56,476 nt of DNA from Bacillota bacterium. GTDB lineage: Bacteria; Bacillota; DTU025. The translations under genes and the position numbers were made by a program. The notes under the pieces are model-generated. The model did not search any database, was not told where the DNA came from, and saw only the letters and a program-made list of their open reading frames with translations. Positions 23,609 to 42,504 of this stretch are shown piece after piece. Each line of letters begins with the position of its first letter. The first letter of the stretch is position 1. The stretch lies in assembly GCA_028709305.1 (NCBI GenBank), contig JAQVXE010000005.1, positions 1 to 56,476 of the forward strand. The letters are read 5' to 3'.

Positions 23609-24949
23609 ATGAAGAAGCTTGCAGTGATACTTGCAGCAGCCATGATTGCAACCGTGGCACTGCCTGTCGCAGCCGCCAACGTCGATATCGGCGGAGAGCT
23701 CGACAGCAAGATCATGTATGACTTTGGTACCAATGCACCTAGCGCCGAGACCAACTTGAAGCTCAACCTGAACGTTGGACCTATCGGCAACCAGACTGTC
23801 ACAGGTGTGATTGAGTTCAACCCGTGGCTCTTTGCCGAGAAGGACGGCAACGGCATGGAAGCAAAGCCGGTAGAAGAGGGCGATCCCATACCAGGAGCTA
23901 TTCGTAAGGCCTATCTAGAAGCGGTCGGTCCCTACTGGACTGACGGCCCAGCCGTGACGAGCAGGCTCGGAGATCTGGAACTCGCATACTCACCGTTCAT
24001 ACTGGCTACAGACGCTGTAAACGGCATGTCGATCTCCGGCATTGCTTACGGTCCTGTCGAGATCGGTGCATTCTATGGCCTAGACAAGGGAATCCGTGCT
24101 CGAGGCGCCCGAGTAGCGGCGGAAATGGGAATAGCAGACATAGCTATTGATGCTTCTGTCGTGAAGCGCGGCCACGAAGAAAACGAAGAACTGGATTACG
24201 CAGCGTACGCCATTGCAAAGCCCATTCCAGGTCTTGCAATCGACGCGACATATGCGGCACAGACCAGCACCGAATCATCGGCCATAAGGGCCAACGCGGC
24301 AGCAGTGGTTCCATACCTTCCCATTGACGTAGTAGCAACGGCGGGCTATCGCCGCACAGGGGAGGCCTTCAACCCCACATATCGATGGACGGGGAAGGGC
24401 AACCCAGTTGACGGAGAGGGTGGAATAGCGGCTGTTACTGCTGGACTCGCAACATCATACGGTGGATTCAATGTGGCACTCGATGGAGAGATTCTCGGCG
24501 ATGACAACGACGGAAAGCTCGACGACGAGCGTTCCATCGGCGCCACCGTGGGGACTGCCGTCTCGTGGTTTGACCTTTCAGCCGGCCATAAGCTGACCCA
24601 GACTATTGGCGCGGAGGAGACTGAGGTTCATAACACCACGACGCTTGGTGTAGCCATGAAAGAGCGTGAGGTAATGCCCAGCATTCTAATGAGCGCTAGC
24701 TACAATGCGTCGATGCCTGACTTCTCACTGACGAACACCAGGCATATAGCAAAAGCCTCTGTCGGCGCAGATGTTTCAGTGCTGAAGGGCGTAAAGGTAT
24801 CTGGAATGTACGACACTAAGCCTGAAGCTGTGAAACCCGGGCGTGAGCTGGGTATCGAATACGGCGCGCCTTGCGGAGTCAAGCTTGGCTATTCGTACAA
24901 CGATCTCAATACAAACATGGTCTACGCTGGCATGGAAGTCGAGTTCTAG
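23609..24949 (+). CDS. porin-like outer-membrane beta-barrel protein
   Basis: 446 residues from ATG 23609 with an AGGGGG SD. A clear signal peptide (MKKLAVILAAAMIATVALPV, cleavage after AAA or AAN) is followed by many short alternating segments such as GELDSKIMYDFGT, KLNLNVGPIG and GVKVSGMYDTKP that look like amphipathic strands. The chain ends in YAGMEVEF; a C-terminal Phe after alternating residues is the outer-membrane targeting signature of bacterial porins. There is no SLH domain, TM helix or LPXTG motif. Most likely a diffusion or substrate-specific porin in the outer membrane of a diderm Firmicute. No close named family is recognised. A perfect palindrome follows as terminator. Confidence 0.65.
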   Translation: MKKLAVILAAAMIATVALPVAAANVDIGGELDSKIMYDFGTNAPSAETNLKLNLNVGPIGNQTVTGVIEFNPWLFAEKDGNGMEAKPVEEGDPIPGAIRKAYLEAVGPYWTDGPAVTSRLGDLELAYSPFILATDAVNGMSISGIAYGPVEIGAFYGLDKGIRARGARVAAEMGIADIAIDASVVKRGHEENEELDYAAYAIAKPIPGLAIDATYAAQTSTESSAIRANAAAVVPYLPIDVVATAGYRRTGEAFNPTYRWTGKGNPVDGEGGIAAVTAGLATSYGGFNVALDGEILGDDNDGKLDDERSIGATVGTAVSWFDLSAGHKLTQTIGAEETEVHNTTTLGVAMKEREVMPSILMSASYNASMPDFSLTNTRHIAKASVGADVSVLKGVKVSGMYDTKPEAVKPGRELGIEYGAPCGVKLGYSYNDLNTNMVYAGMEVEF

Positions 24950-26493: not shown

Positions 26494-27600
26494 ATGGCTG
26501 GTGTCACATTAGAAAACGTAACCAAGAAATTCGGGAACGTAGTCGCGGTAAACAACGCAAACCTGGAGATCAAGGACAAGGAGTTTCTCGTGTTGGTTGG
26601 GCCTTCTGGATGCGGGAAATCGACCACTCTCCGGATGGTGGCAGGACTCGAAGAGATAACGTCAGGCGACATATACATCGGAGACGTCCTCGTCAATGAT
26701 ATCCCTCCAAAAGACCGAGACATCGCAATGGTATTCCAGAACTACGCACTCTATCCCCACATGGACGTATACAACAATATGGCGTTTGGCCTCAAACTTC
26801 GAAAGTTCCCCAAGGAGCAAATTGATGCAAGAGTCAAAGATGCCGCCAGAATTCTCGGAATAGAGAACCTTTTGGATCGCAAGCCGAAGGCACTCTCAGG
26901 AGGCCAGAGGCAGCGTGTGGCTGTCGGGCGTGCTATTGTCCGTGAACCCAAGGTGTTCCTGATGGACGAGCCGCTGTCGAACCTTGACGCGAAGTTGAGG
27001 GTTCAGATGAGGTCGGAGTTGTCGAAGCTCCATAACAGGCTGCAAACGACGATCATCTATGTGACGCACGACCAGACTGAGGCCATGACTATGGGAGACC
27101 GCATAGTAGTCATGAAGGATGGCTTCATCAAACAGGTCGGTGCGCCGCTCGAGATATACCAGTATCCTGAGAACATGTTCGTTGCAGGCTTTATCGGAAG
27201 CCCTGCGATGAACTTTATCCCCGGCGTCTTGCGCAAGGAAGGCGGCGACTACGTCATGGATTGCGAGAGCTTCAGGATAAGGGTGCCGGAGAAGAGGTTC
27301 AAGGATATCGACAAGTATGTCGACGAGAGAATGGTTCTCGGCGTTCGTCCTGAGAATATCCAGGATGCCGATTTCGTGGAAGATGCGCCGGCAGACAGGG
27401 TCGTAAAGTGCATGGTAGATGTGGTTGAGCCGATGGGCGCTGAGGCTTACCTGTATTTGGTGACAGGGCCTCACTCCTTCGTTGCAAGGGTCAACCCTCG
27501 AACAACGGCGCGGGACGGCGAACCACACACAGTTGTGTTGAACATGGAAGAGTGCCATCTCTTCGATGCGAAAACGGAAAATGCCCTCCTTATCAGATAG
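26494..27600 (+). CDS. msmX: MsmX/UgpC-type sugar ABC transporter ATPase
   Basis: 368 residues, the full family length. Walker A GPSGCGKST near 37-45, Q-loop MVFQNYALYPH near 81, signature LSGGQRQR near 134 and Walker B VFLMDEPLSNLDAKLR near 153 are all intact. The C-terminal 130 residues form the OB-fold regulatory extension of CUT1 sugar importers. MsmX-type ATPases serve several sugar permeases, and no permease or binding protein is encoded beside this one, which fits a shared role. The neighbouring ROK kinase and alpha-glucan genes suggest oligosaccharide uptake. A terminator hairpin follows at once. ATG 26494 has GGGAGG upstream. Confidence 0.9.
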   Translation: MAGVTLENVTKKFGNVVAVNNANLEIKDKEFLVLVGPSGCGKSTTLRMVAGLEEITSGDIYIGDVLVNDIPPKDRDIAMVFQNYALYPHMDVYNNMAFGLKLRKFPKEQIDARVKDAARILGIENLLDRKPKALSGGQRQRVAVGRAIVREPKVFLMDEPLSNLDAKLRVQMRSELSKLHNRLQTTIIYVTHDQTEAMTMGDRIVVMKDGFIKQVGAPLEIYQYPENMFVAGFIGSPAMNFIPGVLRKEGGDYVMDCESFRIRVPEKRFKDIDKYVDERMVLGVRPENIQDADFVEDAPADRVVKCMVDVVEPMGAEAYLYLVTGPHSFVARVNPRTTARDGEPHTVVLNMEECHLFDAKTENALLIR

Positions 27601-27615
27601 GAATTAGGGATGATA

Positions 27616-27644
27616 ATGCCGGGGCCCTTGTTCGGCCCCGGCAT
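27616..27644 (+). terminator. GC-rich hairpin after msmX
   Basis: ATGCCGGGGCC pairs perfectly with GGCCCCGGCAT around a 7-nt loop, 15 bp after the msmX stop. No long T-run follows. The stem core GCCGGGGCC recurs at 53515. Confidence 0.6.
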
Positions 27645-27687
27645 GCTACTGTACGTTTCAGTAATTGACAGATGGAGGGGCACTGGA

Positions 27688-28686
27688 GTGAATAATGGAG
27701 TGAATCCCCATACCGGCTATTTTATTGGTGTGGACTTGGGCGGCACCAAGATAGATTCCGTGCTGGTAAATCAGCACAATGTTCCCTTGGACAATGTGGA
27801 GATGCTGACATGCCCCGAAGAGGGACAGGATGCGGTAATGGAGAGGATCATCGCCTCCATTAACAAGCTTGCAGCCGGCCTGCCTGGTGAAATCGATGAT
27901 GTGAAGGCAATAGGCGTAGGATCTCCCGGGCCTCTGAACAAGGAGAAGGGCACTGTAGTGGACGCGCCAAACCTGAAGTGGAAGAATGTTCCGGTAACCT
28001 CAGTCGTTCGTGCCGCTACTGGTCTTCCGGTGTACCTTGAAAACGATGCCAATGTGGCGGCTTTGGCTGAGAACCGCATGGGTGCGGGGCGCGGGACGAA
28101 GAACATGGTTTATGTGACTGTAAGCACTGGCATTGGAAGCGGGCTCATTCTCGACGGCAAACTTTATTCTGGAATCACAGGCGCCGCAGGGGAACTGGGG
28201 CACGTTACCATGGTGCCTGACGGCCCCATGTGCGGATGTGGCAATCGAGGATGCCTGGAATCTCTGGCATCCGGCACTGCTATCGCAAGACGCGCGAAGG
28301 AAGCCGCCAGTCGGGCTGCGGGCGATGGAATTCTGATGGCAGCTGAGGGCAAGATCGAGAATATCGATGCGGTTCTTGTGTCCTCTTGTGCTGAAGCTGG
28401 AGATCCCATGGCAGTTGCCATATTGCGCAACGCTTTCGAATATCTTGGGATTGCAGTCGCAAACCTTGTGAACTTGCTCAATGTGGAGATGGTCGTTATT
28501 GGGGGAGGCGTATCCAACATTGGCGACGTCCTCTTTGATACAGTCAGGCGAGTTGTAGGTTTGCGCGCCTTCCATTTCATGGCGAAGGATGTTGAGATCG
28601 TGCCAGCTGCCTTAGGAGTGGATGCGGGGATGTTGGGCGCAGCCTGCTACGCCATGGAACGGTGGTCGGAGGAGGATTACGCCTAG
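27688..28686 (+). CDS. ROK-family sugar kinase (glucokinase-like)
   Basis: 332 residues from GTG 27688, nine bases after GGAGG; the open frame back to 27610 runs through the msmX terminator and is not coding. The phosphate-binding motif GVDLGGTKIDSVLV is at the N-terminus. The ROK signature is complete: GELGHVTMVPDG followed by the zinc site CGCGNRGCLES near 175-190. GIGSGLILDG and ENDANVAALAE are also typical. The enzyme phosphorylates glucose or a related hexose in the cytoplasm. Some ROK proteins are repressors, but no N-terminal HTH is present here. Position between the sugar ATPase and the glucan cluster supports hexose entry into glycolysis. Confidence 0.9.
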   Translation: MNNGVNPHTGYFIGVDLGGTKIDSVLVNQHNVPLDNVEMLTCPEEGQDAVMERIIASINKLAAGLPGEIDDVKAIGVGSPGPLNKEKGTVVDAPNLKWKNVPVTSVVRAATGLPVYLENDANVAALAENRMGAGRGTKNMVYVTVSTGIGSGLILDGKLYSGITGAAGELGHVTMVPDGPMCGCGNRGCLESLASGTAIARRAKEAASRAAGDGILMAAEGKIENIDAVLVSSCAEAGDPMAVAILRNAFEYLGIAVANLVNLLNVEMVVIGGGVSNIGDVLFDTVRRVVGLRAFHFMAKDVEIVPAALGVDAGMLGAACYAMERWSEEDYA

Positions 28687-28719: not shown

Positions 28720-29655
28720 GTGAAAAGAGTGTGCCTGGCGTTGATGCTCTCGTTTCTTCAGGCCTTGGTGTTGATGCTTTGCTCAGCACACATGCCCATG
28801 CCCCTTTTGGCGGCCGACGTAGGGCAAGAGAGGATCATCTGGGAGGCTGTCGACCCTGAAGGAGATGATCACGGACCGGGGACGTATATCTATCCTACTA
28901 ACCCAGCTTTTGCGCCTTTCTCAGGCATCTTCGACTTGACTGGATTTAAGGTCTCCTGTGATGACGAGAACGTGTACTTCGATACCGAGCTGGCTAACAT
29001 CAGCAATATATGGAATGCACCTGAGGGATTCAGCCACCAGCTGATCAACGTCTTCATAGACACGACTCCCGGAGCTGGGAGGACTGATACTCTCAAGGAG
29101 GGGGCTCTCGTCTCATTTATGCCGCAGTATGCATGGGATGTGAAGATCAAGATAATGGGTTGGGGGGGGAGCCGGGTATACTTCGCATCTGATGGTGACG
29201 TATCTGGCGGCAGATCAGAAGGGTTATCAGTTGAGGCTCTGCCCAATGGAAAGACGATACGTGCCGCCGTGTCGCAGACGGTGATTGGTGAGCCACTCGA
29301 TTCGTGGAAATACTACGTGCTTGTTGGTTCTCAAGACGGCTATGGCCTCGACAACTTTAGGCCGGTAATGGGGGAGGCGGGCCAGTGGGTTTTTGGGGGA
29401 GGATCTGATCTGAACATCAACCCAAATGTAATCGACATACTCGCCCCGGAAAACGGCCCGTACTCTCAGGAGAGCCAACTTGGGTCGTGGAACGCATCTG
29501 AGCGTAGATACGCCATGCTTGTGCCGGCTAACGCAGAGTTGCACCGAGACCGTTTTAGTGTCTCAATCATGATTGTAGTAGTTGCTGCTTTGGGCATTGT
29601 TGCAGCCATGGCATACGTCTGGCTCAAGGGCAGGCGCACCACTGGAAAGGGTTAA
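28720..29655 (+). CDS. membrane-anchored glucodextranase-C/DOMON-like glucan-binding protein
   Basis: 311 residues from GTG 28720. A signal peptide (1-30) is followed by one extracytoplasmic domain with the pattern of the glucodextranase C-terminal module (GDDHGPGTYIYPTNPAF, FDLTGFKVSCDDENVYF, HQLINVFIDTTPGAGRTDTL) and a C-terminal transmembrane helix (about 282-303) ending in KGRRTTGKG. In known enzymes this module accompanies GH15 or GH57 catalytic domains and is thought to bind glucan; here it is a separate anchored protein. The next gene, 15 bp away, encodes an anchored GH57 relative, so the two may work as one surface or periplasmic glucan-handling complex. Confidence 0.75.
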   Translation: MKRVCLALMLSFLQALVLMLCSAHMPMPLLAADVGQERIIWEAVDPEGDDHGPGTYIYPTNPAFAPFSGIFDLTGFKVSCDDENVYFDTELANISNIWNAPEGFSHQLINVFIDTTPGAGRTDTLKEGALVSFMPQYAWDVKIKIMGWGGSRVYFASDGDVSGGRSEGLSVEALPNGKTIRAAVSQTVIGEPLDSWKYYVLVGSQDGYGLDNFRPVMGEAGQWVFGGGSDLNINPNVIDILAPENGPYSQESQLGSWNASERRYAMLVPANAELHRDRFSVSIMIVVVAALGIVAAMAYVWLKGRRTTGKG

Positions 29656-29670
29656 GGGGGAGTACACTTT

Positions 29671-32193
29671 ATGCATAGGAAGTTGCTACCAAGAATCGGG
29701 GTATTCGCCGTCATCATATCTATAATAATGCTTGCTGTTCCAGTGCAGTCGGCTTTCTGGTGGCCGTTGTGGGATACAGAGCCGGAAGACTGGGACGAAC
29801 CGACTGTGCCCACCGAGGCTATGCTGAGTGAGGAAGATCCATATGAGGATGACACAGAAAGGGTTCTCGATGTCGTCTTGGCTTTTGGGCTCATGGGGAA
29901 TGTGTCTCCAGATGGTAAGGAACAGGCGTCAGCAGCTATTGAGAGATTGCTCCGCGTCCTTCTTGCATACCCTGAGTTGAAGTTCTCGGTTGGGGTATCT
30001 GGCACTCTTCTTACAGGACTTGCCTGGCAGGGCTCCAGGACGCTCCAGCTCCTGCGTGATGGGGTTGCCAGAGGTGTAGTAGAGCCTCTCGGTACAACAT
30101 ATTCTGAGGGAGTCCTTGCATCTATGGAGCCTTGGGACGCACAGCTGGCCACATCGTTGGGGGCTGAAGCGGTAGCCGAGTTTGTGGGTGAGAAGCCCAG
30201 CGGCTTCTGGAATTCCTCAGGAGTGTGGAAGCAGGAGATCGTAGTGCCCGTAGCTGTTGGTGGGTACACCCACACCATAATCGAGGATACTATCATCCGC
30301 GGCAGTGGGTTGGACATGCTGCCTCCCAATGCTCCTATGCGAGTCTCATGGGGCGGCAGGGGGGTAGTGGTCTTTCAGGCCGACAGCGATTTTGGAAGGC
30401 TTGTGGATAATACGCTTCGTACCGGATCGCCGAAACCAGTCATGGATTATCTGCGTCGAGTTTACGATGGGGACAAGCAGGACTCCGCAGTGGTGGTGTA
30501 CGCCAGAGAGCTGATGGCTGCTGAGGACGACACAGAATGGGAGAAGCTTGCATCTCTCCTTCAAGCTCTAGCTGATGAGGAATGGATTAGGGTGACTACA
30601 TTGGCAGAAAGGGTGGAATCTGGTCCTCCTCCGGGCAGTGTGATTCAGATAGCCGATGGCGTGCCCCGGGGTCTGCAAGCTCAGTTGACGAAGGAGGGTT
30701 TTCGGGACTGGAAGAGCTTCGACTCTGATTCCGAGGATCTGCAGGCGCTCCGGGCCCTGTATTCTGAGATTCGAGCACGAATTCACTCAGTGGAGGCGGC
30801 TGTCAGAAAGGCTGAGGCCTCAGGGAAAGACATATCCGCAGCCCAAAAGCTGCTTGATCACTCGAAGGAGGTCTTCATATCTGCCCAGTACGGGTTGGGA
30901 CGGCCTGGTTCGGGCGGAGCGGTTTCCGGAGGCACGAATTGGGAGATGGGAAGGGCTGCGTATGTGTCGGCCCTTGCGGCTTGGCAGTGTGTGAATCCGA
31001 CCATATCGGCCTATCAGGAGGACATCAACCGTGACGGTGTGGATGAGGTCATCATGACAACCAATACTGACATGTTCGTGCTCTCTCCCATAGGAGCGAA
31101 ACTCCTGTATTGGCATGATCTTGAGAATGGCGAGGTGCTGGTGGGGAGTGAGATCCAGCAGTACTCGGGGGAGTCGTTTGTCAGTGAGTCTACGGCAGGT
31201 GGCGGACTCGAGAGGGCGTTACTTGATACCATGTCAGGCCCAACTGTAAGCGGAATCGACCTGTCGTTAGCTGAATACGAGGCCAAGCTGGGCGAAGGCT
31301 TTCCAAACGCCTCATTTGCTTTCAGGCATGGCTCAACGTCGATTGAGAAGTCAGTGGCGGCTAAGGATAGGGCCCTTGCAGTGGATTACAGCATCAAGTC
31401 GCGTGGGCGCATCGATTTCACTGTGTCTAGCAACTTCTGCCCCGACATGCATTGGACGCGAATTGGAGGCAAGGACGCTATCGTGTATTACGATCCGAAC
31501 GGCGCAGCTGCGAGCTCGCTCCGGCAGGGAGACAGCTTCGGGTTGGTGAACGTGATCTCTGGCACACTGGTCAGAATCATTCCAGACCAGGCCGGCGACG
31601 AGGATGTGCCACTCTCGCGTGTCTCGTCCGTGTTGGGCGGTTTCGGCAGACACCTGGATCTGGAGTATCGGTTCACAATAGCCCCAGGCGCCTCTGCAGG
31701 CATAGGCTTTGAGCTTCAGCGGGGCAAGACATGGCCTTCGCCGTCGGCAGTCTCCTGGATCCAGGGGAGCGGCAAAGCGATATTGGCCGGGCTTCCTACA
31801 TATACAAGGGCTTGCTCAGTGCGTCAGTTCATTGGCGGATACATCAGTGATATGCCAATGACTACCGTATCTCAGGCAGCAGAGGCGGAAGGATCGGAGC
31901 CGGGGAAGGCGATGTTGGAGGTTGAAGCGCCGATCCCCGAGGGCAGATACGATCTGGTGGCAACTCTGGTGACGGGCAGAAAGGCGCTGATTGAGAATGC
32001 AGGTTCTTATGTCAGAGGCGCCGGCCGCCATGAGTTCTTCCCCGAGGTGCGCGACTCCGCGGTTGAGATAGTGTCTGGTTATGCTCGTGTCGGCGGAACC
32101 ATTGCGGCATGGGTGGCTGTCGGAGTTGGCGCCGCTGTAGTTCTTGCGGCCGTAATAATCTATCTCAGGCAACGCAAAGCTCCAGGCGCATAA
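29671..32193 (+). CDS. membrane-anchored GH57-like protein, catalytic nucleophile missing
   Basis: 840 residues: signal peptide (about 1-28), GH57-like N-terminal barrel (about 60-330), helical middle region, then a beta-rich C-terminal part resembling the DUF1926 domain of GH57 amylases and 4-alpha-glucanotransferases, with a calcium-loop-like DINRDGVDEVIM near 451. A C-terminal TM helix (about 810-832) is followed by RQRKAPGA. Where active GH57 enzymes of this group have WLTERVW, with Glu as nucleophile, this protein has WNSSGVW (residues 180-186), so Ser replaces the Glu. The later FQADSDFG region keeps an Asp near the acid/base position. It is therefore likely a binding or regulatory relative of a glucanotransferase, exposed outside the membrane. 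A strong intrinsic terminator follows. Confidence 0.65.
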   Translation: MHRKLLPRIGVFAVIISIIMLAVPVQSAFWWPLWDTEPEDWDEPTVPTEAMLSEEDPYEDDTERVLDVVLAFGLMGNVSPDGKEQASAAIERLLRVLLAYPELKFSVGVSGTLLTGLAWQGSRTLQLLRDGVARGVVEPLGTTYSEGVLASMEPWDAQLATSLGAEAVAEFVGEKPSGFWNSSGVWKQEIVVPVAVGGYTHTIIEDTIIRGSGLDMLPPNAPMRVSWGGRGVVVFQADSDFGRLVDNTLRTGSPKPVMDYLRRVYDGDKQDSAVVVYARELMAAEDDTEWEKLASLLQALADEEWIRVTTLAERVESGPPPGSVIQIADGVPRGLQAQLTKEGFRDWKSFDSDSEDLQALRALYSEIRARIHSVEAAVRKAEASGKDISAAQKLLDHSKEVFISAQYGLGRPGSGGAVSGGTNWEMGRAAYVSALAAWQCVNPTISAYQEDINRDGVDEVIMTTNTDMFVLSPIGAKLLYWHDLENGEVLVGSEIQQYSGESFVSESTAGGGLERALLDTMSGPTVSGIDLSLAEYEAKLGEGFPNASFAFRHGSTSIEKSVAAKDRALAVDYSIKSRGRIDFTVSSNFCPDMHWTRIGGKDAIVYYDPNGAAASSLRQGDSFGLVNVISGTLVRIIPDQAGDEDVPLSRVSSVLGGFGRHLDLEYRFTIAPGASAGIGFELQRGKTWPSPSAVSWIQGSGKAILAGLPTYTRACSVRQFIGGYISDMPMTTVSQAAEAEGSEPGKAMLEVEAPIPEGRYDLVATLVTGRKALIENAGSYVRGAGRHEFFPEVRDSAVEIVSGYARVGGTIAAWVAVGVGAAVVLAAVIIYLRQRKAPGA

Positions 32194-32217
32194 TTCATCC
32201 TGTTTGGCCAATTATAT

Positions 32218-32250
32218 GACTGCGGCTTGAAATTCAGGCCGCAGTCTTTT
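32218..32250 (+). terminator. intrinsic terminator after the GH57-like gene
   Basis: GACTGCGGC pairs with GCCGCAGTC, extended by three more pairs including one G-T, with an AAATT loop and then TTTT. It ends the two-gene anchored glucan unit. Confidence 0.85.
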
Positions 32251-32272
32251 GGCGTTCAGAGAGGGGTGCTGT

Positions 32273-33469
32273 ATGCGCATATTGATGTTTAGTTGGGAAT
32301 ACCCGCCTCGAGTCATAGGCGGTCTTGCTCGTCACGTGTACGAGCTTGCCGGAGCAATGGCTCGCTGTGCTGAGGTTCATGTGATCACATGCAGCGCGGA
32401 AGGGTCTCAGCCTGTCGAGCGCGACCAAGGAGTATGGGTGCATAGGGTTGATCCCATCGGTCCTGCTACACATGATTTTCTGTCATGGGCTATGCAATTG
32501 TCCTACGGAATGCTGGCTCGGGCTGCAAGTCTTGTCGCGCAGGATGGAGCTTTCGATATAGTTCACGCGCACGACTGGATGACATCGTTTGCGGGGGTCG
32601 GAATGAAGAGGGCATACGCTACGCCTCTTGTGGCAACCATTCATGCAACCGAGTGGGGGAGGAATGGCGGCCTCCACAATGCCATGCAGCGGCGGATATC
32701 CGACATTGAGTGGTTCTTGTGCTATGAAGCCTGGCGCGTCATCGCATGTTCCCGCCATATGCAGGCGGAGCTTACAAGCATATTCGGCGTTCCATCAGAC
32801 AAACTGCGGGTAATCCCCAATGGTGTTCACCCAGGTCAGTTTCAGGAAGCTGATGTGGACATGGCCAGGAGAATGTATGGGCTGTCCGAAGAAGACAACG
32901 TGATTCTCTTCGTGGGCAGGCTTGTGCATGAAAAGGGCGTCCAGCTGCTGATAGAAGCCATGCCCAAGATCTTGCATTACTGGCCCTCTGCGGTACTAGT
33001 AATTGCCGGGCAAGGGCCCTGCGAGGGTGAGCTGCGGAGCCTTGCGGACAGGTTTGATCTGGGAGGCAAGGTCAAGATGGTGGGATTCGTGCCTGACGAT
33101 GTAAGGAATGCTCTGTACAGGCTTGCAAGAGTTGCCGTGGTACCCAGCTTGTATGAGCCGTTTGGGATAACAGCCTTGGAAGCGATGGCTGCGCGAGCCC
33201 CTCTCGTTTCGTCTGACGTAGGCGGGCTGTCCGAAATAGTTAGGCACGGAGAAAACGGATGGAAATGCTACGCCGGCAACGTGAATTCCTTCGCCGATGG
33301 AGTGCTGCACGTGCTTCATAGCGCCGAGGCTGCCGGACGAATGTCGGAGGTCGCCTATGGTGACATCCTTGCCATCTACGACTGGCGGGCTATAGCAGAC
33401 CGCACTCTCAAGGTGTATGAGGAAGTCCTCAGAGAGGCTAGGCATGCAGAGGAGGCTATGTTCAGATGA
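32273..33469 (+). CDS. GT4-family glycosyltransferase, glycogen synthase-like
   Basis: 398 residues from ATG 32273. The N-terminus [20 protein letters not shown] with [10 protein letters not shown] is typical of GT4/GT5 alpha-glucan synthases, including the glycine-rich donor loop GGLARHV. The C-terminal Rossmann half has [22 protein letters not shown] and the EX7E motif within [16 protein letters not shown]. It probably elongates an alpha-1,4-glucan from an NDP-glucose donor. The downstream gene overlaps by 4 bp (ATGA) and encodes a sugar nucleotidyltransferase that could supply that donor. The frame extends to 32249, but those codons overlap the SD. Confidence 0.82.
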
Positions 33470-35940
33470 AGGCAGTGATCATGGCGGGAGGTAAAGGAAC
33501 GAGGCTGCGGCCGTTGACTTGCAGCATGCCGAAACCCATGGTGCCAGTTGTGAACAGGCCGATGATGGAGCATGTGGTCGATCTTCTTGTTGCCCATGGT
33601 TTCACCGACCTAGCCTGTACCCTGTGTTACATGCCAGAGGCAATACGGAGTCATTTTGGCGACGGTTCGTCAATGGGATGCAGGATTACTTACTCAGTAG
33701 AGGATACCCCTCTTGGCACTGCCGGAAGCGTAAGGGCTCTTGGGGATTTCCTCGATGACACGTTTCTCGTCATTAGCGGTGATGCGCTTACCGACATTGA
33801 TCTTGCATCGGCAGTCGCCTTCCACCGTGAGAAGGATGCGGCAGTGACCATCGTTCTGACTCGGGTCGCCACTCCACTAGAATATGGAGTCGTAATCGTG
33901 GATGACGATGGCCGGATCACTAGATTCCTTGAGAAGCCCAGCTGGGGTGAGGTATTCAGCGACACTGTCAACACGGGGATCTACGTGTTGGAGCCTGAGA
34001 TAATGAGGAAAGTCAGTCCGTCGTGTGAGTTCGACTTCAGCAAGAACCTCTTTCCAATGCTGCTCGGCGAAGGGTATCCAATGTACGGCTACATAGCAGA
34101 TGGATACTGGTGCGATATCGGCAACCTGGACCAGTACCGGAAGACATCCCAGGATATCTTAGAGGGCAAGGTTGGGGTGAGGATTCCCGGTGATCTTGTG
34201 GATAACGGCATTTGGGTAAGTGAGGGTGCCGAAATTGGGAACATGGCAGCCCTGCGCCCGCCTGTAGTAGTTGGAGCAGGGGCCAAAATCGAGGCCGGTG
34301 CCTTGGTTGGGGAGTACTCTGTTGTGGGGCCATCCTGCATCATTGCAGAAGGCGCCTCGGTTCTAAGGTCCATACTGTCCACAGGTTGCTTCATTGGGTC
34401 TGGCGCAGAAGCGCATGGAGCGATACTTGGGAGCCGAGTGAGCGCCAAAGCAGGCGTATCTATCCAGGAGGGCGCGGTAATCGGTTCCGGCTGCTCCATA
34501 GGTGAACGGGCTCAGGTGCGTCCGGGGGTCAAAATATGGCCTGATAAGACCGTGGACGGCGGTGCTCAGATCAGCACGAGCCTGGTATGGGGGGCTTCCT
34601 GGTCGAAGCGCCTGTTCGGGCTCCTAGGCGTGGCCGGGCTGGCCAATATTGAGGTCACGCCCGATTTTGCTGCCCGGTTGGGAGCTGCCTATGGTTCGTG
34701 CCTTTCCAATGGGACGTTAGCGGTATCCAGCGATGTCCATCCCGTATCTGACATGATAAGGCGGGCTTTGACGTCGGGAATCCTGTCATCGGGAATGTCA
34801 GTGGCGGAGCTTGATCCTGGAACAACAGCAGTGGCCAGATACGCCGTTCAATCGCTTGGGGCTGGTGGGGGAGTGCATGTGCGGGTATCGCCGACCGACA
34901 GAAACTCGACCCTGTTGGAATTCCTTGACCCAAGCGGGATCAATATAGACAAGGCGATTGAGAGGAGAATCGAGAATGCCTTCCTCACAGAGGACTTCAA
35001 GCGTGCAAACCCTGACAAAGCAGGCAGGGCTATGGCGGTCGAGGGGACTGTAGCCAGGTATCTCGATGCCATCACCGCATCAGTCGATGTTGATGTTGTG
35101 CGTAGTTGTCGAATGAAGGTTGCAGCAGGATATGACAGAGCTTACGTAGGGGAGCTCATCAGCGCTTTTTGCGATGCTTGTGGGTGCGATCTGCACCATG
35201 TGGACATATCCCAGTCAGCGTGGGCCCCATCTTCGGTGGCCGACGCCGTTGCAATGACACGATCCGACCTCGGTTTCTTGCTTGACCGAAATGCAGAAAG
35301 ACTTGTGCTTGTGGATGAGACAGGATCGAGCATCTCAAACGAAGAGATGCTGGCTCTCATTTGCGTAGCTCTCATGACATCTCACCGTGGTACAACTGTT
35401 GCTGTGCCAGTTACGGCATCCTCGTCAATAGAACGACTGGCTGCCGCCTTCAGGGGCCATGTGGTGCGAACTCAGGCTAACCCCAGATCGATGATGGAGA
35501 AAGCGATCGAAGCCCGGGTTAGAATGGGAGAGGCAAACTTGCCTCATTTTCAGCCTGTGCTGGATGGGGTCTTCGCTCTAGCAGTGGTCTTTGAGTATCT
35601 TGCGAGGGAAGGGAGCACACTGTCGGCCTTTGCGCAAATGGCACCGAGATCCTACATGGCGAAGCAGATTGTGGATTGCCCGTGGGAGGACAAAGGCAGA
35701 GTGATGCGGAGATTGATAGAGGAGACTGATGGTGAAGATGTCCAGCTTATAGACGGCATAAAAGTTTATGGCGATCACGGATGGACGCTGATACTCCCCG
35801 ACTCTGAGGAACCCTTGTTCCATGTGTACAGTGAGGCGCAGAGTCAGGAGATCGCTGAGGAAATAGCAGGGATATATGTAAGCAGGATCGCAGAGACCAT
35901 TTCAGACACGCAGATGACAGGAGGCGCTCGCAACATGTAG
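33466..35940 (+). CDS. sugar-1-phosphate nucleotidyltransferase fused to a degenerate phosphomannomutase domain
   Basis: 824 residues. Residues about 1-235 are a nucleotidyltransferase with [13 protein letters not shown] at the N-terminus and [20 protein letters not shown] near 145-165. About 240-370 are left-handed beta-helix hexapeptide repeats. The rest follows the phosphohexomutase layout ([21 protein letters not shown], then [15 protein letters not shown]). The mutase phosphoserine loop TASHNP is replaced by VSPTDRN, and the metal loop DGDGDR reads LDRNAER near 606-612, so the mutase domain is probably not catalytic. Similar fusions are annotated as mannose-1-phosphate guanylyltransferases. 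Overlap with the upstream glucan synthase-like gene suggests NDP-glucose as product; nucleotide and sugar are inferred. Confidence 0.82.
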
Positions 35941-35964
35941 CTTGTGACGAACATGTTGCACTAG

Positions 35965-36049
35965 TTCGGAGTGCCGAATTCTGAGTACCCGCAGCTCGGC
36001 TTCAATTCAATTGGCAGTTGGGGGGTGCTCAGGTCTTGGGCACTCCGAA
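35965..36049. terminator. long interrupted hairpin between convergent genes
   Basis: Outer stem TTCGGAGTGCC/GGCACTCCGAA (11 bp) and inner stem CTGAGTACCC/GGGTGCTCAG (10 bp, one G-T) are separated by a short internal loop, with a 32-nt apical loop. It fills the gap between the nucleotidyltransferase gene (plus) and the GH57 gene (minus) and is probably a bidirectional terminator. Confidence 0.5.
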
Positions 36050-36069
36050 TCGCGTCCGCTTTCCAGACG

Positions 36070-37677
36070 CTACAGGCTGGCTTGGCTGCCCGCGTATACC
36101 GTATAGTCAATGTTGGGGAAGAGGTTGGTCTTTTCTTCAATCTCCGCAAGCCACCTGGGATCTATGGTTGACGCTTTTATCTCATCGTACAGCCGCAAAA
36201 AGCGCGCAACATGTGTCTCAACTCTCTTCTTCGCATAGCCCACACAGGTTCGGGCTTTCATTATGAACGCCCAATCAGAGCTCTGAGCCAGAAGTAGTTC
36301 ACGCGCGGCCTGGGCGAGAGCGCGCTGCGTGAGCTCGGGTTGGGGATGTGGATATGAACGGGCCAATTCAGTCATTCGCCAGGCCATGGTGTGAAGATGC
36401 CGGTAGATCCAGTTGTTGCAGTCTGCCAGCCAAACTTCGCTGTATCCCATGTATCCCCATGACGACATGGATGGTGTGGTGACCTGATTGCGCGGGTAGA
36501 GCATCAGGTAGTCGGATGGGGTTGCCAATGCTATTGTATTCTGGTCGTATGCGATCTTACGAATCACGTAGTCGAGGAACTCGGGGCCTTCGAACCACCA
36601 ATGGCCGAACAGCTCTGCGTCGTAAGGAGCCACTATTATGGGTTTGCGATCCATCACAGATGCAAGGTATTCTACCTGGCGTTCTCTATTGAAGACGAAG
36701 TTCCCGGCATGTGTGGCGGCTTTTTCAACTGCCCACTGACGTACGTATGGCTCCTTGTGATCGGTATTGCCTGTTACCCGGTAATACTTGAGCCCGGTCT
36801 GCATTCTGACAGGGGAATTGCCCATTAGCGGTTTGATCGATTCCCAATCGAGTTCATGTCCGATATCGCGATAGAATTCCCGATAGTCGTAATCACCAGG
36901 GTATCCCTCCTGCGCACTCCAAACCTGTTTGGATGATTCCATGTCGCGGCCGAGCGCTGCTACGCCTGAACGGCAGTAAACAGGGGAGTACACTCCGTAT
37001 CTTGGTCTTACAGAAGCGTTGAGCACTCCGTGGGAATCGGTGAAGAAGTAGTTGATTCCGGCTTCCTTGAGGTATCTGTCGATCCCCGGGAAGTATCCGC
37101 ATTCGGGGAGCCAGAAGCCTTTCGGGCTAAACCCGAAAACCTGCCTGAAGTAATCTACGCCAGCGTGGATCTGTGCGCGGGCGGCTTCAGGGCAGACTTC
37201 CATCAAAGGCAGATACCCGTGTGTGGCCGCTGTAGTAATAAGCTCAACGCAGCCTGAGGCTGAAAGTTCGCGGAGCCCTACTGTCATGTCGCCGCCAAGT
37301 CGGTTCCAGTAGATATCTTGAGCTGATTGGAACCGATCCCGGTACATCTGTGCAATCTCATTGAACTGCGGCAGCCACCGGGTTCGTACAACCTCCCGGT
37401 CTGCTAGTTCAATGAGGTTGTTCACGTAGGTTGAGAATCGCGTCTGAAGCAGTGAATCGTGGAACATCGACAGCAGGGTTGGGGAGACTGATATCGTGAT
37501 CCGGTAGGGAACACCTTCGTCTGCAAGGCGCGAAAGAATCATGTAAAGAGGAATATAGGTCTCAATCAGTGCTTCGTAGAACCATTTTTCTTCCAGATAG
37601 TGTTCTCCATCTGCATGTCGAACGAAAGGAAGATGTGCGTGCAATACAATAGCGAGATATCCCAGTGGAGTCGACAA
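36070..37677 (-). CDS. GH57 1,4-alpha-glucan branching enzyme-like protein (copy 1)
   Basis: 535 residues. It begins with the GH57 region GYLAIVLHAHLPFVRH. The nucleophile motif is intact, GFWLPECGYFPG near 180-191, and the acid/base region reads VAPYDAELFGHWWFEG near 345-360. The C-terminal helical domain (LYPRNQVTTPSMSSWGYMGY, SDWAFIMKARTCVGYA) is that of the Thermus/Thermococcus GH57 branching enzymes. It should introduce alpha-1,6 branches into alpha-glucan in the cytoplasm, as no signal peptide is present. It is translated after the DUF4912 gene with a 3-bp gap. A second GH57 of the same type is encoded divergently 1.2 kb away. Confidence 0.87.
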   Translation of the reverse strand: MSTPLGYLAIVLHAHLPFVRHADGEHYLEEKWFYEALIETYIPLYMILSRLADEGVPYRITISVSPTLLSMFHDSLLQTRFSTYVNNLIELADREVVRTRWLPQFNEIAQMYRDRFQSAQDIYWNRLGGDMTVGLRELSASGCVELITTAATHGYLPLMEVCPEAARAQIHAGVDYFRQVFGFSPKGFWLPECGYFPGIDRYLKEAGINYFFTDSHGVLNASVRPRYGVYSPVYCRSGVAALGRDMESSKQVWSAQEGYPGDYDYREFYRDIGHELDWESIKPLMGNSPVRMQTGLKYYRVTGNTDHKEPYVRQWAVEKAATHAGNFVFNRERQVEYLASVMDRKPIIVAPYDAELFGHWWFEGPEFLDYVIRKIAYDQNTIALATPSDYLMLYPRNQVTTPSMSSWGYMGYSEVWLADCNNWIYRHLHTMAWRMTELARSYPHPQPELTQRALAQAARELLLAQSSDWAFIMKARTCVGYAKKRVETHVARFLRLYDEIKASTIDPRWLAEIEEKTNLFPNIDYTVYAGSQASL

Positions 37678-37680
37678 TGA

Positions 37681-38697
37681 TCATGACCTCCCATTTTCCC
37701 TAATTGCTCTCGACACAATCCATGAGATGCCTCTGTGCATGATTCGGTCGGCCGATGTAGCGAAAATGTCAACAGGGTGGTCTCCCAATGGCAGAGCAAG
37801 GCGGACCGAGAAACTGCCGTCAGGTCCAACCGGCATTGGCATGCCGCATATCTCCACTTTTGCCCCTGGCTCTGTTGATCCATGGACAATCAGTTCGGCA
37901 TCGGCCCTAAGCCAGAAATGGCGAGCAGGTTGGTGGGCTTCGCCTAGCCCGACCATAGGGCTGCCTACTGCGCCTACGCCCCCTGACCCGAGGGCAACTT
38001 CGCGAGCGTGCTCTTCGGCTCGGGCAACCACGTGAATGCCGGGAGATGAAGGCGATAGACTAGGACGATGCAACATGTCAATCTCGCGTATGGTTAGCCA
38101 CTCTTCATCCACAATCGGAGATGGGCTGACCCTGGGAGTGTGCACAGTATTAGAACGTGCAATCAGGTAGAACTGAGATGTGCTTGTGACAAGCCCGAGG
38201 TCGACGCAGTAGGACCTGTCTGCCTGCTTTACGTCTATGTACCAGTTGCCCGCGAAGGGATGAACCTGCTTGTCGAAACTGCCAACCGAGTTACTTCCAT
38301 CGAACGCAATCCCTGTGACGTCATGAACACGGAGCGTAAGGTTGGAGCGGTCCAGCTCCTCTCCGAGCTGTCGACGGAGGCTGTTGGCCATGTCTTCAGC
38401 AATCTCCCAATAGGCATGCATCCAGAAAGGGTCGCGAACTTGGAGGACTACTCTCGTGGCTCCATAGAAACTTGGTAGTATTGGGAGTTCGCGACGTCGA
38501 GCCGGGTCCAGCTCTATGCCCTCAGGCTCAAATACGGTTACCTCCGGCAAGGATCTGTGTGGAAGCGGTTGATGGCTCAATTCCGGCGGGCTGAGCTCGA
38601 TTTCGGCATCGTTCGCCGATGCATTCTTGTGCTCTGGCACGATGAGCGCTTCTGCGCTTCCTTCTGTTTGGATGACCTCATCGAGCGAGTCCTGCAC
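37681..38697 (-). CDS. DUF4912 domain protein linked to GH57 enzymes
   Basis: 338 residues from GTG 38697, eight bases from AAGGAGG (38712-38706). Residues about 70-200 match DUF4912: LPSFYGATRVVLQVRDPFWM, HAYWEI, NWYIDV and FYLIARSNTV. The C-terminal third (about 260-338) is a beta-rich segment, ELIVHGSTEPGAKVEICGMP then GPDGSFSVRLALP, like a bacterial Ig-type repeat. No signal peptide is seen. DUF4912 genes often lie beside GH57 genes, and a glucan-binding or scaffold role has been supposed from that; no activity is known. It heads a two-gene unit with the branching-enzyme-like gene. Confidence 0.8.
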   Translation of the reverse strand: MQDSLDEVIQTEGSAEALIVPEHKNASANDAEIELSPPELSHQPLPHRSLPEVTVFEPEGIELDPARRRELPILPSFYGATRVVLQVRDPFWMHAYWEIAEDMANSLRRQLGEELDRSNLTLRVHDVTGIAFDGSNSVGSFDKQVHPFAGNWYIDVKQADRSYCVDLGLVTSTSQFYLIARSNTVHTPRVSPSPIVDEEWLTIREIDMLHRPSLSPSSPGIHVVARAEEHAREVALGSGGVGAVGSPMVGLGEAHQPARHFWLRADAELIVHGSTEPGAKVEICGMPMPVGPDGSFSVRLALPLGDHPVDIFATSADRIMHRGISWIVSRAIRENGRS

Positions 38698-38862
38698 TTA
38701 TGGAACCTCCTTACAAACACCCAAAGCATAAGGTTCAATTGCCGATGTTTGCCGTCTGGCAATCTCTTGGTTAGTCTGCCCGCTCAAAATGTGGGTTATC
38801 CCATGCCGGATACTCTTCTTGCTTTGGGCAACAATAGTTTATGCTTCAAGGAGGTGCTCACT

Positions 38863-40461
38863 ATGGACCAAATTGGAACGTTCTCTCTAGTGCTTCATTC
38901 GCATATTCCCTACTGCCGCAGGTCTGGAGTATGGCCGTTTGGAGAGGAATGGGTTTTCGAAGCAGTCGCTGAAACCTATATTCCCATACTGGACTGGCTT
39001 TTGTCTTGCTCCGAAGAGGGGATAAGACCCAATGTCACACTCAGCTTCTCCCCGGTCTTGGCAGAGCAGCTTGCCGATTCGTATATGCAATCGCGAACTA
39101 TCGAGTACATGGACGCCCGTGCCATGGCTGCGCAGGCAGATCTTAGGCGACACGAGTCGGTGCACGATGATAGGCTTGCCGGATTGTCAAGGTACTATGC
39201 CAATTTCTATGAGAATGCAAAGAAGAGGTTCACAGACTACTATGACTGCAATCTGCTGGGCGCCGTTGCCAGACTTGCTGCCAGGGGAGAAGTAGAGCTT
39301 CTTGCCACATCAGCGAGTCACGCCTACCTGCCGTTGCTATCTGGAGATTCGCGTGTCCGCACTCAGATTCGCGTGGGCTTTGAGGCCTGCCAACGGCACT
39401 TTGGCGTTTCACCCAAGGGTGCTTGGCTCCCGGAGTGCGGGTACAGCCCAGGAACCATCGAACGGGCTTTGGAGGAGTGTGGGATTGAATACTTTATCGT
39501 TGATACGCCGGCAATAGCAGGTGGAGGTCCGCGCAACCTCTACGGCGGTGTTCCCGGAGTCTGTGATAACCAGATCGGAGCGAGCCTGCCAAGTATGGCA
39601 ACGCTTGTGCCATATCGCTTACGCGACTCCAAACTGGCCGTCTTCGGCCGAGATGAGGTAACGGCCGCCCAGGTATGGTCGAGGGATGTCGGGTATCCGG
39701 GCGATGGTAACTACCTTGAATTCCACAAGAGGGATGACTCCTCTGGGCTTCGCTACTGGAAAGTCACAAGCAAGCTTCTGGATCTCGGACAGAAGCAGCT
39801 GTACAATCCCGAAGATGCACTGGCAAGCGTGATGAGGCATGCGAAGCACTTCGTCGACGTCGTAGAGGCGAGGCTCGACAGATATGGAGAGGAAACAGGA
39901 AGGCACGGGATCATAGTGGCGCCCTATGATATGGAACTCTTTGGGCACTGGTGGCATGAAGGCGTCCAGTGGCTTTCAACGGCAATGAGGATGCTGCACG
40001 ATTCGAGCCGGATTGAGTGCGCCACTTTGGGATCGTATCTCAACTCACATCCTCCCGTGCACGAAGTTGAACTCCCTGAGTGTTCGTGGGGACAGGGGGG
40101 AAAGCACGCAGTTTGGCTCAATTCTGAAACTGAATGGATGTGGGAGGCTATCTGGCGGTCACACGACACTGTGCGCAAGCTTGAGGAGGTATTCGGAACC
40201 CTGGAGGGGACCTCGCGGTCCATGGCGGAGCACGCTCTCCGCGAGCTCATTCTCTTGGAGGCCAGTGATTGGCCGTTCCTTGTGACCACCAATCAGGCTC
40301 GCACGTACGCCCGTGACCGGTTCACACAGCACCTGTCAGATTTCGAAGTTCTGGCGCAGGCTGCGATCTCCGGAGAAGTGGATTCAGGATCTCTGGAAGC
40401 TCTGGAAACGTCGTCCGTCCGGGACTCGCTCTTCACATGGCTCGACTGGGGAGGGCTATGA
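38863..40461 (+). CDS. GH57 1,4-alpha-glucan branching enzyme-like protein (copy 2)
   Basis: 532 residues from ATG 38863 with AAGGAGG upstream; the open frame back to 38557 overlaps the divergent DUF4912 gene and is not coding. The N-terminus reads GTFSLVLHSHIPYCRRSG. The nucleophile motif AWLPECGYSPG is intact near 186, and the acid/base segment VAPYDMELFGHWWHEG is intact near 352. The C-terminal domain is shorter than in copy 1. The two copies share layout but differ clearly, so they may act on different chain lengths or substrates. It is transcribed away from the DUF4912-GH57 pair across a 165-bp region that should hold both promoters; its stop codon overlaps an extended -10 box for rapZ. 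Confidence 0.85.
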   Translation: MDQIGTFSLVLHSHIPYCRRSGVWPFGEEWVFEAVAETYIPILDWLLSCSEEGIRPNVTLSFSPVLAEQLADSYMQSRTIEYMDARAMAAQADLRRHESVHDDRLAGLSRYYANFYENAKKRFTDYYDCNLLGAVARLAARGEVELLATSASHAYLPLLSGDSRVRTQIRVGFEACQRHFGVSPKGAWLPECGYSPGTIERALEECGIEYFIVDTPAIAGGGPRNLYGGVPGVCDNQIGASLPSMATLVPYRLRDSKLAVFGRDEVTAAQVWSRDVGYPGDGNYLEFHKRDDSSGLRYWKVTSKLLDLGQKQLYNPEDALASVMRHAKHFVDVVEARLDRYGEETGRHGIIVAPYDMELFGHWWHEGVQWLSTAMRMLHDSSRIECATLGSYLNSHPPVHEVELPECSWGQGGKHAVWLNSETEWMWEAIWRSHDTVRKLEEVFGTLEGTSRSMAEHALRELILLEASDWPFLVTTNQARTYARDRFTQHLSDFEVLAQAAISGEVDSGSLEALETSSVRDSLFTWLDWGGL

Positions 40462-40585: not shown

Positions 40586-41497
40586 ATGACAGATACGGCG
40601 AAAAGAGGCCAAGAGCTTTCCTGCATCGTAATCACAGGGCTGTCGGGAGCGGGCAAGTCTGAGGCAGCCAGAGCATTTGAGGATCTCGGCTACTTCTGCA
40701 TTGACAACCTTCCGGTTATGCTCATCCCGAAACTGGCAGAGCTGTTGTCTGAGACGTCTGGCCGTATTGACAAGGTGGCGCTTGTTATAGACGTGCGCGG
40801 CCAGGACGTTTTCGGCCAGCTCTCCTCTGTTTTCAAAACCATGGATGATTCTGGGTTCAACTACAGAGTGCTGTTTCTGGAAGCGTCTGATGAAACCCTT
40901 GTAAATCGTTTCAAGGCGAGCAGAAGGCCACATCCGCTCGCGCCCGAGGGTAGGATCCTGGACGGGCTAAGGCTGGAAAGGCAGCTGTTGGCCGCACTTC
41001 GTGCTGGGGCGGCTTTGGTGATCGATACGTCGGGCCTAACGGCGAGGCAACTGAGAACCGAAATTGTGCGCAGGTTCGGAGATGATTCAGGTGCGCCTAC
41101 AATGCAGTTGACCCTGGTTTCATTCGGCTTCAAGCATGGCGTGCCGGCAGACGCAGACCTTGTGTTTGATGTCAGATTTCTGCCCAACCCGTTCTATGTT
41201 GACTCCCTAAGGGAGCTGACGGGGAATGACGAAGAAGTGAATGAGTATGTCATGCGTTGGCCGGTGACGAACAGATTCGTTGACAAGCTAGTGGATCTAT
41301 TCAGATTCTTGCTCCCTGAGTATGAGAGGGAGGGCAAGTTCAACCTGACGGTTGGCATTGGGTGCACAGGCGGACGCCACCGCTCGGTAGCCATTGCGAA
41401 CCAGCTAGCCAGGCCGTTGCGCGAACTTGGATACCGTACTCATACAATGCATAGGGATATCGAGATAGGCAGCGGGGACCAACCCGCATTGAAGTAG
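40586..41497 (+). CDS. rapZ: RapZ/YvcJ nucleotide-binding adapter
   Basis: 303 residues. The P-loop [20 protein letters not shown] and CIDNLP are at the N-terminus, and the C-terminal RapZ signature [19 protein letters not shown] is near 255-273. In E. coli RapZ steers RNase E to the glmZ small RNA and so controls amino-sugar synthesis; in Firmicutes the role of YvcJ is less clear, with a link to competence in Bacillus. The gene is followed by yvcK 11 bp later, and whiA lies on the far side of spmAB, preserving the classic rapZ-yvcK-whiA set. Confidence 0.92.
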
Positions 41498-41508
41498 GAG
41501 GGACTCTA

Positions 41509-42504
41509 ATGCGTCGAAGCCCTGTGCCAAGACTCCTTTCCCGCAGACTGCGCGTTGTGGCGCTTGGCGGTGGGACTGGGCTTTCTATGTTGTTGAGAGG
41601 TTTGAAGGAGTATACTAGCCGAATCACCGCGGTTGTGGCGGTGACGGATGACGGCGGAAGCTCGGGCAGATTGCGTCAGGAAATGGGTGTGCTGCCCCCT
41701 GGCGACATTCGAGATTGCTTGGTTGCGCTGGCAGATGCTGAACCTCTAATGAAGGAACTTTTCGACTACAGGTTCAACGGAGAAGGGCCTTTGGCAGGGC
41801 ACAATTTCGGCAATCTGTTCATCGCCGCCATGTCGGAGATAACAGGCGACTTCGAGCTTGCGATAAAGGAGTCCAGCAAAGTATTGGTGGTAAGAGGGCA
41901 CGTGCTGCCGTCTACCCTTGACAATTGTGCCTTAGGAGCAGTGCTCGAAGACGGGACGGTTGTGATGGGCGAGACATCAATTAGCAGCAGTAGTCTTGCA
42001 ATACGCGAAGTCTTCCTTGAGCCTGCGCCATGCACTCCGCTTCCGGAGACTTTGCATGCCATAGAAGCCGCAGATGTGATTGTGCTCGGCCCCGGAAGCT
42101 TGTACACCAGCGTCATGCCGAATCTTCTTGTCGAGGGCATTGCAGAGTCAATCGCCCTGTCGGATGCAGTCAAGGTCTATGTATGCAATGTCATGACACA
42201 GCCCGGGGAGACTGATGGGTACACGGCCCAGCAGCATGTGGCTGCGATTCATGAGCATGCAGGCACTAATGTCGTAGATGTGGTCATCGTGAACAATTCG
42301 CCCATATCAGGAGAGGTCCTTGCGAAATACTCCCGGGAGGGCTCCTCACCGGTTTCGTGGGATCAAAGAGCCTTGGAACAGATGGGGGTCAGGGTAGTGG
42401 ATGCCCCGGTCATCAGCAGGACCAACCTTGCGCGTCATGATCCAGCAGCACTTTCTGAGGAGATAATGGCATTGGCAGTCGGACGCCTGCTTACCGGAAA
42501 ATGA
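41509..42504 (+). CDS. yvcK: YvcK/CofD-family gluconeogenesis factor
   Basis: 331 residues from ATG 41509 with a GGAGGG SD. The family motifs [46 protein letters not shown] and GHNFGNLF are all present. YvcK is a UDP-sugar-binding relative of the CofD transferase, needed for growth on gluconeogenic carbon sources and for proper cell-wall synthesis in Bacillus. Its C-terminus overlaps the convergent spmB gene by 14 bp. Being next to the glucan and glycolysis genes fits a role in carbon partitioning. Confidence 0.93.

Follow-up and report, generated by a model that had tools for sequence, protein, structure and literature searches.

Can the genes clustered in this window (the whole stretch of 56,476 nucleotides analysed) make a branched alpha-glucan in place of the classic glycogen pathway, and do the two membrane-anchored proteins encoded ahead of the synthesis genes belong to the same system? 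An earlier note, made from the sequence alone, had described here an alpha-glucan cluster with inner and outer parts, and all seven genes that it named are present, open and intact. Our reading, to which a probability of about 0.62 is given, is that they represent a phylum-wide module for glycogen-like synthesis used in place of GlgC-GlgA-GlgB, fed by sugar uptake and accompanied by anchored proteins that bind glucan or maltodextrin.

From malK through the nucleotidyltransferase gene, the run is entirely plus-strand and closely spaced (Table 1); the gaps ahead of the GT4 gene measure 9-79 bp, and the GT4 and nucleotidyltransferase genes overlap by 4 bp. The malK and ROK glucokinase genes (26494-28686) are part of the same conserved run. 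The DUF4912 and GH57a genes form a separate minus-strand pair with a 3-bp gap, and GH57b has its own start, with AGGAGG in front of the ATG at 38863; thus, two or more transcription units are involved. Scans for promoters and terminators returned nothing above the chance level. The class shares the gene order, and much of it is conserved throughout the phylum, indicating that the cluster is not a chance assembly. Downstream, the gene beside rapZ is presumably yvcK, as recognized from its sequence. A signal-peptide protein with a beta-barrel look and no Pfam match is encoded upstream (23546-24949), in a place conserved in the class.

Table 1. Features of the alpha-glucan cluster and its conserved neighbours in the window.
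Feature	Position	Strand	Support
malK, MalK/UgpC-type ABC ATPase, first of the conserved run	26494..27600	+	NCBIfam UgpC over cut-off
ROK-family glucokinase	27610..28686	+	PF00480 E 1.7e-78; TIGR00744 just over cut-off
GdxC-TM: signal peptide, Glucodextran_C, C-terminal TM, basic tail	28720..29655	+	PF09985 E 1.2e-71
GH57deg-TM, 840 aa, anchored GH57 homologue	29671..32193	+	PF03065 E 8e-12
Ser183 codon, replaces GH57 nucleophile Glu	30217..30219	+	hhalign alignment
Arg279 codon, replaces GH57 acid/base Asp	30505..30507	+	hhalign alignment
GT4 glycosyltransferase, proposed alpha-glucan synthase	32273..33469	+	PF00534/PF13439
Nucleotidyltransferase fused to pseudo-phosphomutase domain, proposed NDP-glucose source	33466..35940	+	PF00483 E 9e-56; PGM_PMM I, III
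Pseudo-mutase domain, about residues 382-810	34609..35895	+	without TASHNP or DxDxDR
GH57a, AmyC-type branching enzyme (by sequence)	36070..37677	-	BE_C E 7e-38
DUF4912 protein, GH57a partner	37681..38697	-	PF16258 E 9e-36
GH57b, TK1436-type branching enzyme (by sequence)	38863..40461	+	BE_C E 2e-18
rapZ and yvcK, conserved neighbours outside the claimed pathway	40586..42504	+	rapZ by Pfam/NCBIfam

The description of two anchored extracytoplasmic proteins was borne out. GdxC-TM (241 bits on PF09985; cut-off 22) and GH57deg-TM each combine a signal peptide and a C-terminal transmembrane segment with a Glucodextran_C and a GH57 domain, respectively. By hydropathy, each has a single hydrophobic segment at either terminus (4-22 and 279-297 in GdxC-TM) and a basic tail of about 10-15 residues; the remaining five cluster proteins show no membrane segments. 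Hydropathy thus has the pair facing outwards from the cytoplasmic membrane, and because the genome encodes Omp85/BamA, the outward side is probably the periplasm.

The inactive look of the anchored GH57 was also confirmed. The best solved match of GH57deg is 1k1w, and profile-profile comparison aligns it with GH57 4-alpha-glucanotransferases over 558 columns (E 4e-21). In the alignment, the motif GMWLAERVW has become GFWNSSGVW, and the nucleophile Glu is therefore Ser183; the acid/base Asp aligns to Arg279. The nucleophile Glu is absent from GH57deg in every class member covering the site. From its sequence, GH57deg is apparently an inactive 4-alpha-glucanotransferase relative with neither catalytic residue; an active GH57 4-alpha-glucanotransferase was rejected, both Glu and Asp being missing. 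The AlphaFold model is of low confidence (mean pLDDT 58), so its best fold match, 1k1x (E 6.5e-24), serves as support only. Against a relative 72% identical, the dN/dS of GH57deg is 0.11 and that of its neighbours 0.04-0.05, pointing to faster evolution of GH57deg, but these values are rough, with dS above 1.6 and synonymous sites near saturation. Since the frame is kept at a dN/dS of about 0.11, the best reading of GH57deg is a pseudoenzyme under selection rather than a gene in decay.

Both cytoplasmic synthesis genes of the earlier note, GT4 and nucleotidyltransferase, are present; the fusion of the latter to a phosphomannomutase-like domain had gone unmentioned. The best solved match of the GT4 is GlgM (6tvp), and on the GlgM-type NCBIfam model it reaches 169 bits against a cut-off of 302. 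On this score, and in view of a better GlgM candidate on contig C74, a GlgM/GlgE reading of the cluster was rejected. The nucleotidyltransferase half keeps its motifs. Its best solved match is the UTP-glucose-1-phosphate uridylyltransferase 8x7s (234 bits), and on the GlgC model it scores 106 bits against a cut-off of 425. Neither TASHNP nor DxDxDR occurs in the mutase half of any of the 64 family members; elsewhere in the genome, DxDxDR is found in four other mutases, three of which also have TASHNP. A true bifunctional nucleotidyltransferase/phosphomannomutase was discarded for want of active mutase motifs in all 64. A second nucleotidyltransferase-pseudomutase fusion is encoded on contig C155 (L182:8489-10939); it is 35% identical to that of the window, its mutase half is degenerate, and it has counterparts in other class members.

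The two different GH57 branching-type enzymes, as well as DUF4912 (PF16258), also proved to be as described, one AmyC-like and one TK1436-like. GH57a matches AmyC of T. maritima (2b5d) with 482 bits, and glycogen branching by AmyC has been demonstrated (PMC6616209); GH57b matches 3n8t of T. kodakarensis with 427 bits. By sequence, both carry the GH57 domain, the catalytic Glu/Asp pair and BE_C that mark GH57 branching enzymes, and the pair is kept in 45/45 GH57a and 12/12 GH57b proteins; both score below the narrow NCBIfam equivalog cut-offs. The DUF4912 model suggests an FN3-like beta-sandwich, a fold match taken as support only because of its low confidence (AlphaFold, mean pLDDT 52).

Several arrangements in other genomes point to alpha-glucan as the product. 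GH57a and GT4 are a single polypeptide in four genomes (L135, L155, L165 and L186), which form one clade in the GT4 family. In an Omnitrophota contig (L067), the gene row reads GlgA, 4-alpha-glucanotransferase, DUF4912, GH57a, GlgC, with 563 bits for GlgA (cut-off 328) and 440 bits for GlgC (cut-off 425); therefore, the GT4 and the fused nucleotidyltransferase occupy the GlgA/GlgC place. Elsewhere, starch-specific genes lie next to the module, encoding CBM53/CBM25 proteins in L145, L146 and L173 and, in L140, GH15 and debranching enzymes. The GT4 together with the fused nucleotidyltransferase would most likely stand in for GlgA and GlgC in the synthesis of a branched alpha-glucan.

The rest of the genome was covered by targeted family searches (assembly 97% complete, 192 contigs). 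The absence of classic glgB and glgP, noticed earlier for the cluster, holds genome-wide as searched: a family search gave no match for GT35 phosphorylase, and of three GH13 genes, none scores as GlgB (NCBIfam) or is called GlgE. Only three NTP_transferase genes were found, namely the window gene, its C155 paralogue and a 453-aa frame on contig C23 that we take to be GlmU. Because the genes remaining outside the window are thus a fused paralogue and a putative GlmU, neither GlgC nor GalU was found in the genome. Standard glg genes elsewhere, which the earlier note would have held against its proposal, do occur in part. Contig C114 carries a GT5 glgA over the curated cut-off, with a neighbouring galT-like gene and a third GH57 gene of branching type, and C74 (L016:4907-6073) carries a GlgM-type GT4 over the NCBIfam cut-off, with no GlgE gene in the stretch read; a GT5-like gene on C43 is below the cut-off. 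As glgC, galU, GH13 glgB and glgP were not found, the standard pathway is incomplete elsewhere in the genome. The C114 glgA with its own GH57 nevertheless argues against the module as the sole synthase candidate.

Genes for the use of external glucans were seen as well. A secreted GH57 amylopullulanase-type protein with a GdxC module is encoded on C142 (L011:5460-10789), beside a protein of 733 aa that carries three AMPK1_CBM/CBM48 modules and resembles an outer-membrane starch-binding protein. On C145 (L012:5940-11555), SBP, MalF- and MalG-like genes with a maltodextrin glucosidase-like GH13 gene make up a maltodextrin importer. That stretch showed no malK, and the malK of the window may be the candidate ATPase for this importer.

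The co-occurrence proposed as a check in the earlier note was found, as parts of the cluster recur well beyond the source genome. Among 300 phylum genomes, DUF4912 is present in 145; the fused nucleotidyltransferase reaches E 1e-70 or better in 164, and 148 of these were kept after weak matches were dropped. The two occur together in 127 genomes, DUF4912 alone in 18 and the nucleotidyltransferase alone in 21 (Fisher p 2e-41, which ignores shared ancestry). A sample of 49 families, one neighbourhood each, was drawn through the nucleotidyltransferase and thus measures the companions of that gene: GT4 adjoins it in 35 families, and GH57a lies near it in 29, DUF4912 in 28 (L173 adds one by Pfam), GdxC-TM in 7 and GH57b in 4. 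About a quarter of the neighbourhoods have no GT4 in range, and about 40% have no GH57a. DUF4912 lies beside GH57a phylum-wide. The rapZ/yvcK genes are near the module in 8 further families, and PHP-type-looking phosphoesterase genes are found near the module and rapZ-yvcK in L146, L173, L131, L140 and L175.

The outer part of the cluster is distributed unevenly. PF09985 is found in 75 of the 300 genomes, and the nucleotidyltransferase in 63 of these 75. Stand-alone GdxC proteins are encoded beside the module in seven families outside the class (L131, L138, L140, L146, L147, L172 and L173), and these proteins all carry hydrophobic segments at both termini like those of GdxC-TM. A ROK glucokinase gene is adjacent to GdxC, or separated from it by one gene, in L146, L147 and L173, and L147 also carries malK, in the same place as in the class, and an OMP-like gene. 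The recurrence of GdxC-TM with the same topology in seven sampled families indicates that the link of inner and outer parts is not a local accident, and conserved topology together with co-occurrence supports a functional tie between GdxC and the module. The proposed division into inner and outer parts therefore stands for GdxC, but GH57deg was found only in families f1 and f2 of the class. It is present in 9 of 12 class genomes, all in these two families. Its neighbourhood is conserved wherever class contigs reach, except in L032, where GT4, ROK and GdxC were uncalled by ORF picking and the GdxC frame is there by profile. A wide distribution of GH57deg was rejected, since the form with the loss was found only in f1 and f2. 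In the main group of phylum matches, the one checked is an active-type 4-alpha-glucanotransferase with PF09094/PF09095, and the others keep the Glu motif in the alignment. A scan of named genomes with the GH57deg alignment returned six loci, five of them in class genomes already found. Relatives in family f42 lie in other contexts; two of them (L052:380-2410 and L053:4711-6693) keep the nucleophile Glu and are possible active cousins, one having genes for sugar ABC permeases and for a LacI regulator as neighbours. Because they are missing from many module genomes, GdxC-TM and GH57deg are regarded as optional.

Taking gene content, hydropathy, catalytic residues, co-occurrence and fusion as observed, we would predict the activities, donor nucleotide, polymer and binding role as follows. 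The fused nucleotidyltransferase would supply NDP-glucose (UDP- or ADP-glucose), its dead mutase domain probably being a structural or ligand-sensing domain. The GT4 would build alpha-1,4 chains of glucose, into which the AmyC-type GH57a, together with DUF4912 and helped here by GH57b, would introduce branches. Imported maltodextrins may supply the sugar through the MalK and the ROK glucokinase encoded upstream. GdxC-TM, joined in this class by the pseudo-glucanotransferase, would most likely bind alpha-glucan or maltodextrin uncut and keep the substrate near the importer. Since ROK, malK and OMP-like genes lie near GdxC, we infer that binding is tied to uptake rather than to sensing or export.

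Other explanations were weighed against this one. Ordinary intracellular storage glycogen, with the anchored pair merely belonging to adjacent starch/maltodextrin-uptake genes, is a less likely possibility. It would fit the lack of an exporter in the cluster and the absence of GdxC and GH57deg from most module genomes, and the secreted GH57-GdxC protein of the same genome implies that GdxC modules also serve extracellular starch breakdown; the stand-alone GdxC-TM kept in topology beside the module in seven outside families, and the nucleotidyltransferase in most GdxC genomes, speak against it. A more closely coupled system seems unlikely, in which the dead mutase half would sense and GdxC-TM with the pseudo-glucanotransferase would link envelope glucan to the control or continuation of GT4 synthesis. 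The anchored proteins may sense glucan, as the earlier note suggested. That they act as a receptor for outside alpha-glucan or maltodextrin, adjusting glucan synthesis inside, we consider very unlikely: the type I topology with short basic tails, the loss of catalysis in a conserved frame and the closely spaced operon place ahead of GT4 would suit a receptor, but tails of this length contain no signalling domain and the cluster encodes no regulator.

Scarcely more than a slim chance is given to a capsule-like surface or periplasmic alpha-glucan held at the envelope by GdxC-TM and the pseudo-GH57. Outward proteins of glucan-binding type do accompany the synthesis genes, and an extracellular alpha-glucan exists in mycobacteria (PMC4981310); however, no flippase, polymerase or ABC-2 exporter lies in or beside the run, and the synthesis enzymes have no membrane segments. 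No dedicated exporter or flippase is present among the cluster-run genes that Pfam or homology could assign, and the suggestion of export in the earlier note thus has no candidate gene in the cluster. Action of these two enzymes, GT4 and nucleotidyltransferase, on a different sugar by GDP-mannose-type chemistry, with the GH57 genes as mere neighbours, is equally improbable: a mannose-1-phosphate guanylyltransferase is the best NCBIfam model of the nucleotidyltransferase, below cut-off, but its best solved relative, the GH57a-GT4 fusions, the starch-binding and debranching neighbours and the failure to find GalU or GlgC elsewhere in the genome all speak against this.

The preferred reading, glycogen-like synthesis tied to uptake, concerns a module for which no description was found in the open-access literature searched, subscription journals being mostly outside its scope; DUF4912 appears there in a single paper, an unrelated one on cotton transcriptomics. 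The module is provisionally considered undescribed. A 2024 review left open whether GT4 genes beside archaeal glycogen genes are unrecognized glycogen synthases (PMC11046441); the GH57a-GT4 fusions and the GlgA-GlgC swap make this question directly testable in bacteria. DUF4912 and the fused nucleotidyltransferase are each present in about half of the 300 phylum genomes, mostly together. If the reading is true, scoring genomes by glgC, glgB and glgP alone would under-call glycogen capacity, and pseudoenzymes would be regular participants in an alpha-glucan pathway.

Both anchored proteins have known relatives. GdxC-TM has the C-terminal module of glucodextranase (PF09985; solved in 1ug9), but is stand-alone, anchored and without a catalytic domain. 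Inactive GH57 groups are already known (PMC6037648); compared with the "4-alpha-glucanotransferase-like" proteins described there, GH57deg is set apart by a signal peptide, a C-terminal anchor and its place in a fixed gene cluster. The module as a whole resembles the GlgC-GlgA-GlgB pathway in that a nucleotidyltransferase, a glycosyltransferase and a branching enzyme are encoded together, and in Omnitrophota genuine GlgA and GlgC are found with the DUF4912-GH57a pair. It differs in using a GT4 instead of a GT5, a fused nucleotidyltransferase-pseudomutase instead of GlgC and a GH57 instead of a GH13 branching enzyme, in a genome without phosphorylase. The GlgM-GlgE pathway (GT4 GlgM, GH13 GlgE) likewise has a GT4 synthase, and GlgM 6tvp is the nearest solved structure, but the cluster GT4 is below the GlgM cut-off and no GH13 is called GlgE. 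In T. maritima, AmyC is a relative of GH57a and DUF4912 is also found, whereas here GH57a is tied to a GT4 and a fused nucleotidyltransferase.
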